Source: a virus. Taken from it: a stretch of DNA of 23,381 bases. Where the stretch lies: IMG/VR virus record IMGVR_UViG_3300043446_000407, positions 1-23,381 of that record. The stretch is one strand, 5' to 3'. Position 1 is the stretch's first letter. Each line of letters begins with the position of its first letter. Under the pieces are notes generated by a model. It was not told where the DNA came from. It saw only the letters and a program-made list of their open reading frames with translations, and did no database searches. The translations under genes and the position numbers were made by a program. This document shows, piece after piece, positions 13,588 through 17,482 of this stretch.

Positions 13588-14306
13588 CAGAAGTTGTTGG
13601 CGTAGATGTTGTAACGCTGACGAGTCGCCACAATCGGGTACGGGATCGCCATCAGATCATTCGGGTTGTTGATACGCTTGAGGTTGCGCTTGCTGGTCAT
13701 CGCAATGCGCGTGACCTGCGGCGAAGGCTCGACGCCGAATTCCGGCGCTAGCTCCATCGCCAAGTTGTAGCGGAAAGCGCGCAGATAGCCCGGCGGGAAG
13801 TAGATGTCGGTGGCAACGCTGGCGACTTCCGCAAGCGTCTCCACCGAAATGATGTGCCATTCCAATGCCTTGATGGGCACAGGATAGACCGTCAATTCCA
13901 TGTCGGGGAACGTATTGTTCACCCACATGACTTGAGGGTACGTTGACGTCACGGTCTTGAACGCAATGCCGTCGTACTGCTGCTGGTTGATCAGCTTGAC
14001 GCCAAACGATAGCCCCGAGGACGGGTCTTTGAAGTAGGTGGCGTCGTCGATCTCAATCGGGCGGTTGCCGACAAAGTCCCCGGTCGGGCCAATCGTGCGC
14101 GACTTTTCGTAGGCGGGCCAAGTGAAGACCTGATCCTGCGTGCTAAACACCGACAGACGTTCAGTGTCCCAAGACTGAATCATCTGGTTCATCGCCATGA
14201 TCGAGTCTTGCATCGTGTCGGCAGAAGGCTCTTCACCTTCAGCCAACTGGCCGATCAGACGCAGCGATCCTTTGATGAGTTCGCCGGCGGTAGCAGAGGT
14301 GGTCAT
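13587..14306 (-). CDS. P22 gp4-like head completion / tail accessory factor
   Basis: A 239-residue protein whose start (AGELIKGSLRLIGQLAEGEE, SMAMNQ-type helix MNQMIQSWDTERLSVF) follows the tail accessory factor pattern: a helix, a turn and a helix that build a ring under the portal. The C-terminal helices (PPGYLRAFRYNLAMELAPEF) match as well. P22 gp4 is shorter (about 166) and some members also have muralytic activity; no catalytic motif is evident here. It lies directly before the gp10-like gene and overlaps the upstream 75-aa gene (ATGA). Confidence 0.85.
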   Translation of the reverse strand: MTTSATAGELIKGSLRLIGQLAEGEEPSADTMQDSIMAMNQMIQSWDTERLSVFSTQDQVFTWPAYEKSRTIGPTGDFVGNRPIEIDDATYFKDPSSGLSFGVKLINQQQYDGIAFKTVTSTYPQVMWVNNTFPDMELTVYPVPIKALEWHIISVETLAEVASVATDIYFPPGYLRAFRYNLAMELAPEFGVEPSPQVTRIAMTSKRNLKRINNPNDLMAIPYPIVATRQRYNIYANNF

Positions 14307-14530
14307 TCCGTGGCCTCCTTAGGCCGACGCCCACGGCGGCGCGGCAGTTGATTTACAGGTTCGGCCGGAACGGGTTCGGGGGCAGCAGGCGCCTCGGGCT
14401 CGTCTTGCGGCTCGTTTGCGTCGCTGGGGTCGAACTCCTCCCAGCCGTCTTGAATATCATTCTCGGCTTCCATCTCAGAAGTTGCAACCTTGGCGCCGTG
14501 AATGGGGTGTCGAAGGTAAATGACGGCCAT
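14303..14530 (-). CDS. Small acidic protein with basic tail (75 aa)
   Basis: Begins MAVIYLRHPIHGAKVATSEM, a start I recall in small proteins located between coat and gp4 genes in several phages. The centre (residues 30-60) is rich in Asp, Glu, Pro and Ala and probably disordered, and the end is RRRGRRPKEATE, resembling an AT-hook-like basic motif (RGRRPK). There is no Shine-Dalgarno before the ATG; instead a strong hairpin ends 8 bases upstream. Possibly a minor virion or assembly protein. Function unknown. Confidence 0.65.
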   Translation of the reverse strand: MAVIYLRHPIHGAKVATSEMEAENDIQDGWEEFDPSDANEPQDEPEAPAAPEPVPAEPVNQLPRRRGRRPKEATE

Positions 14531-14538
14531 GATTTAGG

Positions 14539-14561
14539 CAGGGGGCCGGTCGGGCCCCCTG
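14539..14561 (-). terminator. Perfect 9-bp GC hairpin between two virion genes
   Basis: Arms CAGGGGGCC (14561-14553) and GGCCCCCTG (14547-14539) pair perfectly around a 5-base loop. No T-run follows, so it may pause polymerase or protect message ends rather than terminate. It stands just upstream of the 75-aa gene. Confidence 0.5.
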
Positions 14562-14565
14562 TGGT

Positions 14566-14883
14566 TTACGCTACGACAGGGTACTGCCACTTGGTGCCGT
14601 CCGAAATGAACAGCTTGCCAAGGCCAGTGGCGTTGGTCGTGGTTGCCAACGAACCAACCGGCGCCGAAGTGGTCGTCGAGTTGGCGGTGATAGCGCTGGT
14701 CAGAAAGTACAGGCCAGCGGTGCCGTTGGCGACAGCGGCTCCGTTGGTTGCGGTACTGGTAACTGCGCCAGAAGCGGTAACCGTGGTGGCGGTAACAGCT
14801 TGCAGACTAGACGCGCCGGTGACGGTCACGCTGTCGAACTGCGGGTCGCTGTACGCCACGCCGACTGCTTTGGTATTAGGCAT
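14566..14883 (-). CDS. Hypothetical virion protein, head-fibre-like (105 aa)
   Basis: Thr/Ala/Val/Ser-rich with short repeating strands (VTVTGASSLQAVTATTVTAS, then GAVTSTATNGAAVANGT) and an ending GLGKLFISDGTKWQYPV similar to the small tip modules of head fibres and decoration proteins. ATG at 14883 follows AAAGGA. It lies in a run of separately spaced virion genes behind the coat gene, each with its own hairpin, which fits an abundant capsid accessory protein. No family name can be given. Confidence 0.6.
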   Translation of the reverse strand: MPNTKAVGVAYSDPQFDSVTVTGASSLQAVTATTVTASGAVTSTATNGAAVANGTAGLYFLTSAITANSTTTSAPVGSLATTTNATGLGKLFISDGTKWQYPVVA

Positions 14884-14897
14884 GGTGTTGTCCTTTC

Positions 14898-14921
14898 AAA
14901 AACGGGGGGCCAAGGCCCCCC
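14898..14921 (-). terminator. Rho-independent-type terminator
   Basis: On the minus strand GGGGGGCC (14921-14914), a 2-base link and GGCCCCCC (14911-14904) are followed by G and a run of five T (14902-14898). This is the best terminator in the window. It lies between the 133-aa and 105-aa genes, so downstream genes need read-through or another promoter. Confidence 0.75.
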
Positions 14922-14927
14922 TGTTGA

Positions 14928-15329
14928 TTACGACACGCGGTATGCCGTCCAAGTACCGTCGCCGGTCTTGCGAGCGCGGAAGTGAGCGGAAGTGTTCACC
15001 GTCACTGCTGCCGTGCCAACAATCGTCCAACCAGTCCCAGTCGTCAACGTGATGGTGTCCGAGCCGGACGCATCAATGTTGATGACGAAGAAGTCGAACG
15101 CAGCGTTCACCTTGGTAGCCGAAGAGACTTCGGCCTCCAGATCGGCCACGGTGGGCAACTGGAGGTTGCCGGCAGTGCCGTTGAAAGTGAACAGACCACT
15201 TGCGAGCTGGGCGGCCGTAGCAGTTGCGCCGGCCGTCAGCGCGGTGGGGGCGGGCTGAATGAACAGAAGAGCTTCGCCGGTATTGCCATCGTTGAACTGA
15301 TAGCCACCAGCACCATTAGGGATTGCCAT
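14928..15329 (-). CDS. Hypothetical capsid decoration-type protein (133 aa)
   Basis: Sits directly behind the coat gene with its own leader (GAAAGGA). The sequence (NDGNTGEALLFIQPAPTALT, FFVINIDASGSDTITLTTG, ending GTWTAYRVS) is beta-rich, has no Cys, and resembles coat-associated decoration or fibre-head proteins of related phages I recall. It is likely made in large amounts, since a strong terminator-like hairpin follows it. Exact role unproven. Confidence 0.65.
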   Translation of the reverse strand: MAIPNGAGGYQFNDGNTGEALLFIQPAPTALTAGATATAAQLASGLFTFNGTAGNLQLPTVADLEAEVSSATKVNAAFDFFVINIDASGSDTITLTTGTGWTIVGTAAVTVNTSAHFRARKTGDGTWTAYRVS

Positions 15330-15356
15330 GATGAATTCCTTTCAGAAAGAGTTTGG

Positions 15357-15375
15357 AAAGGGGGCCGTAGCCCCC
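15357..15375 (-). terminator. Hairpin with UACG tetraloop after the coat gene
   Basis: On the minus strand GGGGGC (15375-15370), loop TACG (15369-15366) and GCCCCC (15365-15360) form a 6-bp stem closed by a C-G pair, which is an exceptionally stable C(UNCG)G tetraloop. Three T follow (15359-15357). Likely a partial terminator or 3'-end stabiliser for the coat message. Confidence 0.6.
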
Positions 15376-15382
15376 GTTTCGT

Positions 15383-16591
15383 TTAGCCCCAGAGACGCAC
15401 GCCCATCTGCGGACGAATGACGCTGTAGCCGTACAACACGTCAATACGGCAAGGCATACGGTCATTGTTGATGTCGTACTGACGAACAATACGCATCGAG
15501 ATACCGTTGTGCACTTGGCGCGAAGCCATGTCGACGCCTTGCGGCAGCATCAGGTCGGCGGTAGCGAAGGTGATCGCATCCTTGTGGTACACAAGGTTCT
15601 GCGGGTACTGGCTGGAAGCCGCGCCCACAAACACAACAGCCTTGCTATTACCGGGCAGCGAATCCACAGTAGCCAGCGCGTTGCTGGCCGAGTAGATCGG
15701 CGACACGGTGATGTTGCCAGCGCCAGAACCGTTCAGCGTCACGTCAGCAGCGGCCACGAACTGGAACAGCGAGCCGGTGGACTCGCGGGTCTGCGGGTTC
15801 ACAGCGTAGCAGTCTGCCACGGTGAACACGTCGCCCTGCTTCACAGTAGCGTTGGCACCAGCGCCGGTGATGGCGATGGTCGTTGCGCCTTCGCTCGACA
15901 CAGCAGCAGAGGTCGTGCCGCCGGTCGCGGTGCGCGAGCCAGTGGTGAACTGCTTGATTGACTGAGACATGTTGACTTCGTCAAAGCCCAGCACGCCCAT
16001 GCCCATCATGCCATTCTTGAACTGGCGGCTGATGGTGTCGGTGGGGTTGAACAGACCCTTCATGCCTTCGACCAGACCAGCGTTGGCGGCCGGGTTGACG
16101 GTGGCATAACGGGGGCTCATCACCGCAGCGTTCTCGTTCAGCTTCTGCTGGGCCTGCAACAGCACCAGAGAGGTCGACGGCGTGGTGCCGGGGGTGCCGA
16201 CGCTGTTGCCGATGTACTTAAACGAATTGGCGACGTCAGCGTCGATGCTGGCGGCCAACTGGCTGATACGAGGCTTCAGCACGCGCTCTGCGAAGTCGTC
16301 CAATTGCAGAGTCAATTCGGCAGACGTGAAGTTCACGCCGATGTGCTTCTGCGAGGCGACCGTCAGGGTCGTGTACTGCTCGTTGTCGCTCTGCACTTGC
16401 AGGGCGGCGCCGTCGGTCACCAGAGCGCGGTCAGGCAGACGGATACGGAGGGTCGAACCAATCTTGGCACCTTCGACAGCAAAGCTGTCGTCGTACTGAC
16501 GGTTCACGTTGCGGGTCAGGACAAGATTGTTCTCAAGGATCTCAAGAGCCTTGCGAGTAATCATGTCGATGGTAAGCAGGCTGTTTGCCAT
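15383..16591 (-). CDS. Major capsid (coat) protein, P22 gp5-like
   Basis: A 402-residue coat protein of the P22 type (P22 gp5 has about 430). The N-terminus (SLLTIDMITRKALEILENNL) is the family opening, and SAELTLQLDDFAERVLKPRI (90-109) belongs to the HK97-fold core. Residues about 220-305, including ITGAGANATVKQGDVFTVAD and YAVNPQTRESTGSLFQFV, correspond to the extra inserted domain characteristic of P22-type coats. The end (VLYGYSVIRPQMGVRLWG) is also typical. AAAAGGA precedes the ATG, 20 bases after the scaffold gene. It forms the capsid shell. Confidence 0.93.
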   Translation of the reverse strand: MANSLLTIDMITRKALEILENNLVLTRNVNRQYDDSFAVEGAKIGSTLRIRLPDRALVTDGAALQVQSDNEQYTTLTVASQKHIGVNFTSAELTLQLDDFAERVLKPRISQLAASIDADVANSFKYIGNSVGTPGTTPSTSLVLLQAQQKLNENAAVMSPRYATVNPAANAGLVEGMKGLFNPTDTISRQFKNGMMGMGVLGFDEVNMSQSIKQFTTGSRTATGGTTSAAVSSEGATTIAITGAGANATVKQGDVFTVADCYAVNPQTRESTGSLFQFVAAADVTLNGSGAGNITVSPIYSASNALATVDSLPGNSKAVVFVGAASSQYPQNLVYHKDAITFATADLMLPQGVDMASRQVHNGISMRIVRQYDINNDRMPCRIDVLYGYSVIRPQMGVRLWG

Positions 16592-17403: not shown

Positions 17404-17421
17404 GGTTGCTCGTTTTGAGCC

Positions 17422-17438
17422 CTGATGTGCCGCATCAG
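17422..17438 (-). other. Small leader hairpin
   Basis: CTGATG and CATCAG pair over 6 bp with a 5-base loop, inside the predicted 5' leader of the scaffold message between promoter and start codon. It could affect translation or stability; no family recognised. Confidence 0.35.
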
Positions 17439-17452
17439 TACGGTTTGGTTAA

Positions 17453-17480
17453 ATTCTACGCCCAGTTACCCGGGCGTCAA
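17453..17480 (-). promoter_or_regulatory. Sigma70-like promoter for scaffold and coat
   Basis: TTGACG (17480-17475), a 16-base spacer and TAGAAT (17458-17453) differ from consensus at one base in each box. It begins right after the tailspike stop, in the only sizeable gap of the late operon, and would start transcription near 17446. The spacer carries a 6-bp inverted repeat (ACGCCC/GGGCGT) that could be an operator or a weak terminator. Confidence 0.65.
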
Positions 17481-17482
17481 GA

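Follow-up and report, generated by a model that had tools for sequence, protein, structure and literature searches.

Introduction

In phage LUZ100, a promoter and a terminator bracketing the major capsid gene have been measured, together with sequential read-through across several termination sites, and the corresponding T7 (T-phi) arrangement is known (PMC10134795). Hairpins containing CUUCGG are described, in a passage of PMC8948821 that cites Tuerk 1988, as common in phage intergenic regions, one of them stabilizing the gene 32 mRNA of T4. T4 gene 38 and gene 25 have split ribosome-binding sites (PMC3014915).

The locus described here lies in a 23,381-base stretch of virus DNA (IMG/VR record IMGVR_UViG_3300043446_000407, positions 1-23,381; hereafter the window) and carries three hairpins, referred to as rungs 1 to 3, behind its coat gene. 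As in T7 (T-phi) and LUZ100, a hairpin directly follows the major capsid gene and a local, here putative, promoter lies upstream of it. Here, however, three successive rungs stand behind the coat, putative spike and fibre-like genes, the coat belongs to the P22 lineage, and termination is predicted from sequence. Like the T4-type CUUCGG hairpins, those of the locus and its relatives include extra-stable hairpins of the C(UNCG)G type, situated on the sense strand in intercistronic gaps. They are restricted to three fixed sites after the coat gene, whereas the T4-type hairpins are spread over the genome. As at T4 gene 38 and gene 25, the rung 3 hairpin separates upstream sequence from the start codon of the next gene, but it lacks an upstream Shine-Dalgarno (SD) sequence beyond background. 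The order and families of the portal, scaffold, coat, gp4-like adaptor and gp10 genes are those of the P22 morphogenesis operon, from which the locus differs by the spike and fibre cassettes that additionally lie between the coat and adaptor genes and by the rungs that separate them. No published description of a three-hairpin ladder was found in the part of the literature that was covered. The ladder, which is shared by a large group of P22-like phages known from uncultured material, most likely exerts control of a known type, its layout being unusually regular.

Gene content of the locus

The minus strand of the window encodes a P22-like morphogenesis operon in the order portal, tail-fibre-like genes, scaffold, coat, 133-aa gene, 105-aa gene, 75-aa gene, gp4-like tail adaptor and gp10-like stabilisation protein (Table 1). 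The P22 coat, portal and stabilisation families (PF11651, PF16510 and PF11134) are all present above their cut-offs, which identifies the module as P22-like. The tail adaptor and 75-aa genes overlap by 4 nt.

Table 1. Features on the minus strand of the window, in the direction of transcription.
Feature	Position	Strand	Basis or remark
Candidate sigma70-like promoter, TTGACG-N16-TAGAAT, before scaffold-coat	17453..17480	minus	Several relatives have similar sites near -75
Two-hairpin scaffold-gene leader, CUGAUG(CGGCA)CAUCAG then GCUC(AAAAC)GAGC	17408..17438 (region 17404-17482)	minus	Conserved in relatives
Scaffolding protein, 263 aa	16612..17403	minus	phrog_8865, E 1.6e-30
Major coat protein, 402 aa, P22 coat family	15383..16591	minus	PF11651, E 4.7e-38; phrog_283
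Rung 1, GGGGGC(UACG)GCCCCC, coat/133-aa gap	15360..15375	minus	6 bp; tail UUUCCAAAC
133-aa gene, probable capsid spike/decoration protein	14928..15329	minus	Predicted structure; phrog_673 weak
Rung 2, GGGGGGC(CUUG)GCCCCCC, 133-aa/105-aa gap	14904..14921	minus	7 bp; tail GUUUUUG
105-aa gene, fibre-like cassette between rungs 2 and 3	14566..14883	minus	Translations and alignment
Rung 3, CAGGGGGCC(CGACC)GGCCCCCUG, 105-aa/75-aa gap	14539..14561	minus	9 bp; without U-run
75-aa gene, acidic; SD-less start codon directly behind rung 3	14303..14530	minus	Sequence
Tail adaptor (gp4/Ad3-like), 239 aa	13587..14306	minus	phrog_12985, phrog_637; tail adaptor annotated in DSL-LC05
gp10-like packaged-DNA stabilisation protein (Hc3), 477 aa	12154..13587	minus	phrog_578, E 8e-138; PF11134

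The two genes enclosed by the rungs look like genes for virion surface proteins. The AF2 model of the 133-aa protein (pLDDT 81) has its best PDB match in the Pa223 capsid spike (PDB: 9ny6_C; E value 5e-5), with a modest TM score of 0.44, and the gene matches phrog_673 weakly (28/44 members); on the strength of the predicted fold, the product is probably a capsid spike or decoration protein. The 105-aa gene had no family match in protein family searches. In the window and its relatives, its product combines a constant N-terminal anchor, MxNTKxxGVAYxDP, with exchangeable C-terminal parts, several of which are unrelated. This cassette is absent from several relatives, in which a single hairpin is left (L020, L021, L022, L044, L068 and L083, among others).

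Three hairpins behind the coat gene

The first-pass annotation had reported three GC stems in three consecutive gaps, and they are located there, on the minus strand. Its stem lengths agree with ours for rung 1 (6 bp, UACG loop) and rung 3 (9 bp, no T-run), whereas the 8 bp given for rung 2 is reached only if a 2-nt loop is allowed and is otherwise 7 bp. Rung 1 starts 7 nt past the coat stop codon, and the end of rung 3 is followed after 8 nt by an ATG without an SD sequence. With predicted free energies of -13.8, -15.3 and -19.5 kcal/mol for rungs 1, 2 and 3, respectively, all three count as stable GC-rich hairpins. The loop of rung 1 is of the C(UNCG)G type, that is C(UACG)G, while those of rung 2 (CUUG) and rung 3 (CGACC) are not. 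When each gap was subjected to dinucleotide shuffling, its top stem was matched or exceeded in 25/2000, 31/2000 and 0/2000 shuffles for rungs 1, 2 and 3, respectively. A terminator scan of the whole window returned 24 candidates against 16.6 +/- 3.9 expected, a mild excess that is unconvincing alone, and no Rfam family matched within the window at gathering score.

Conservation and covariation in relatives

The comparison comprised 80 IMG/VR loci with a coat identity of at least 84%, two GenBank phages and 17 loci from bacterial genome contigs; since loci were picked by coat similarity, the close set is biased toward near relatives. Most relatives have in common the gene order coat, 133-aa gene, variable cassette, 75-aa gene and adaptor. 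Some automatic gap calls were wrong because an upstream in-frame ATG had been chosen (rung 3 of the window and several rung 2 gaps), and the sequences themselves were used in these cases.

The gap downstream of the coat gene contains a hairpin in nearly every close relative, mostly with a UUCG or UACG loop and with widely differing stems, including GGGGGC/GCCCCC, GGCCCTCGG/CCGGGGGCC and GCCCC/GGGGC. Hairpins with differing stems are likewise kept in the rung 2 and rung 3 gaps, and the loop is UNCG in 52/61, 38/51 and 33/48 relatives at rungs 1, 2 and 3, respectively. In 67 non-redundant loci (579 kb), a count made without gene calls found 164 sense and 17 antisense UNCG hairpins, compared with about 12 (11-15) per shuffled strand. 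Approximately 150 of the 164 sense hairpins are located 0-100, 300-500 or 800-1100 nt past the coat stop codon, that is, in the three gaps. Strong stems with any loop also peak in these gaps and are sparsely scattered elsewhere. The three sense-strand UNCG peaks behind the coat gene provide an annotation signature for an abundant group of uncultured phages.

Beyond the close set, a hairpin follows the coat gene in many phages with a coat identity of 30-41% (PAE2, PBR31, P26218, BA3, Vibrio, VvAW1 and X14), and it is directly followed by a U-run in PBR31, BA3, Vibrio, VvAW1 and X14. Among cultured relatives, rungs 2 and 3 are fused in phage DSL-LC05, which also has rung 1, as does Rhodoferax phage P26218. 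Rung 1 is cleanly missing in four close loci (L023, L043, L045 and L071), as well as in 6 of the 10 bacterial genome-contig loci that were informative, and is thus dispensable.

A search for covariation of stem pairing in relatives, one of the checks proposed by the first-pass annotation, bore out its expectation. Exchanges between GC and CG retain pairing in 90-100% of cases, compared with 53-64% in shuffles (pairs 4-5 of rungs 1 and 2, pair 5 of rung 3), and at most inner positions double changes preserve pairing much more often than in shuffles or slides. Mapped on the coat tree, the inner stems have changed at least 15, 16 and 13 times at rungs 1, 2 and 3, with pairing kept; these arms have also flipped polarity, from G-first to C-first, at least 6, 6 and 3 times, respectively, again without loss of pairing. 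The conservation in relatives thus establishes the hairpins as real, where the window-wide scan could not convince. The orientation of the UUCG loops and the covariation indicate that selection acts on the sense RNA and, on this comparative evidence, the ladder is selected as sense-strand RNA.

At rung 3, nine loci (L017, L024, L029, L043, L045, L050, L062, L071 and L081) have a fixed seven-base loop, GGGGG(CUAAUCA)CCCCC, which is absent from rungs 1 and 2 and is possibly a protein-binding loop.

Probable termination and alternative functions

Terminator d-scores were calculated with the classical formula after outer A-U and G-U pairs had been trimmed; they were +31.5, +25.8 and -1.6 for rungs 1, 2 and 3 of the window and exceeded zero in 51/61, 50/51 and 45/49 relatives, respectively. 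In the window, the tails are UUUCC at rung 1 and GUUUUUG at rung 2, and rung 3 has no U-tract. In relatives, at least four U among the first 6 nt behind the stem were found in 19/61 loci at rung 1, 43/51 at rung 2 and 40/49 at rung 3, so that U-tail quality is poorest at rung 1 and good at rungs 2 and 3. The proposal of stepwise attenuation with levels decreasing from coat to tail genes is consequently retained in part: the ladder is conserved, covarying, on the sense strand and mostly terminator-like in its tails, but only 5 of the 30 loci with all three rungs rank them as a monotone series 1>2>3. The decreasing order is unsupported because, among relatives, the weakest rung is the first, and in the window the third has no U-tract.

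On balance, we consider it probable that all three hairpins serve to form RNA 3' ends, most likely by acting as leaky intrinsic terminators. RNA polymerase would start upstream of the scaffold gene and lose a fraction of its transcripts at each rung, and this loss is proposed to result in a great excess of coat over spike, fibre and tail-adaptor proteins; each released 3' end would be capped by a stable hairpin, which would also protect the upstream message. Phages need hundreds of coat subunits and about a dozen adaptors from one operon. The sense-only peaks in three gaps, the pairing kept through repeated stem changes, the d-scores, the coat-gap hairpins and U-runs in distant phages, the candidate promoter and the LUZ100/T7 precedent are points in favor of termination, and the predicted spike-like fold of the 133-aa protein is also counted for it. 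On the other side, the stem of rung 1 is mostly not followed directly by a U-tract, in the window rung 3 has none, rung 1 is dispensable, strong stable stems are equally expected of mRNA stabilisers, and antitermination in a late operon would cancel the effect. We infer termination, its efficiency and its effect on protein ratios from the form of the hairpins only, and form alone cannot separate termination from mRNA protection. The main rival, which we regard as possible rather than probable, is that the hairpins stabilise mRNA or mark processing boundaries while causing little termination; they would block 3' exonucleases after endonuclease cuts and give each cistron its own half-life. The dominance of C(UNCG)G loops, the frequent lack of a U-tract at rung 1 and the precedent of the CUUCGG hairpin reported in a passage of PMC8948821 to stabilize T4 gene 32 mRNA are consistent with this, but U-tracts occur at rungs 2 and 3 far more often than a pure stability element would need.

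It is unlikely that the rungs as a whole act on translation, by insulating genes from read-in ribosomes or by setting the start of the next gene, since a normal SD sequence is free downstream of rungs 1 and 2; the downstream SD is missing in 0/61 loci at rung 1 and 4/51 at rung 2, compared with 28/48 at rung 3. There the usual geometry is a stop codon, 2-6 nt, the hairpin, 0-11 nt and the ATG, and the SD-less ATG of the 75-aa gene lies 0-13 nt behind the hairpin in relatives, or 18-22 nt in three loci. Given this proximity in most of these loci, ribosomes would begin the 75-aa gene by termination-reinitiation across the folded hairpin. In the window, rung 3 has no U-tract and adjoins an SD-less start, and may thus act on translation or stability instead. 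A split ribosome-binding site of the T4 gene 38/25 type was rejected, strong anti-SD pairing after removal of the hairpin being found in 4/28 loci, at the 16% background. More speculatively, ribosomes might finish the fibre gene, cross the folded, SD-less hairpin and restart at the ATG 0-11 nt further on, so that termination at the first rungs would be combined with reinitiation at the last; we give this hairpin-bridged start little credence, but if true it would couple synthesis of the tail adaptor to fibre-gene translation. The exchange of the fibre cassette, with its constant N-terminus, unrelated C-terminal parts and occasional absence leaving one hairpin, would be compatible with hairpins serving as recombination or mosaic boundaries. 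However, recombination needs sequence identity and the stems are diverse, the UUCG loop on the sense strand only points to RNA, and rung 1 is flanked by two conserved genes, making this reading very improbable. That the stems are chance products of GC-rich intergenic sequence might be argued from the window terminator scan, which is only mildly above shuffles, but this is excluded by position-specific conservation with stem replacement and by the gap shuffles, and we give it next to no weight. As the ladder is fixed in position and often rebuilt, it offers a natural series for dividing the roles of termination, mRNA stability and translation.

The scaffold leader and candidate promoter region

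The first leader hairpin of the scaffold gene covaries strongly, with 51 double-change cells in 41 sequences, a value reached in 0/500 shuffles; its fifth pair is recurrently C.A or U-A. The second hairpin often covers the scaffold SD sequence. Scaffold autoregulation is known in P22, and the leader is a candidate translational operator, perhaps for autoregulation by the scaffold. The spacer of the candidate promoter contains the inverted repeat ACGCCC..GGGCGT. In a second clade (L018, L030, L035, L059, L060, L078 and loci resembling them), the promoter position upstream of the scaffold gene is occupied by a long inverted repeat, TTGCCAGaCTGCA...TGTAGtCTGGCC, which is perhaps an operator or another hairpin.
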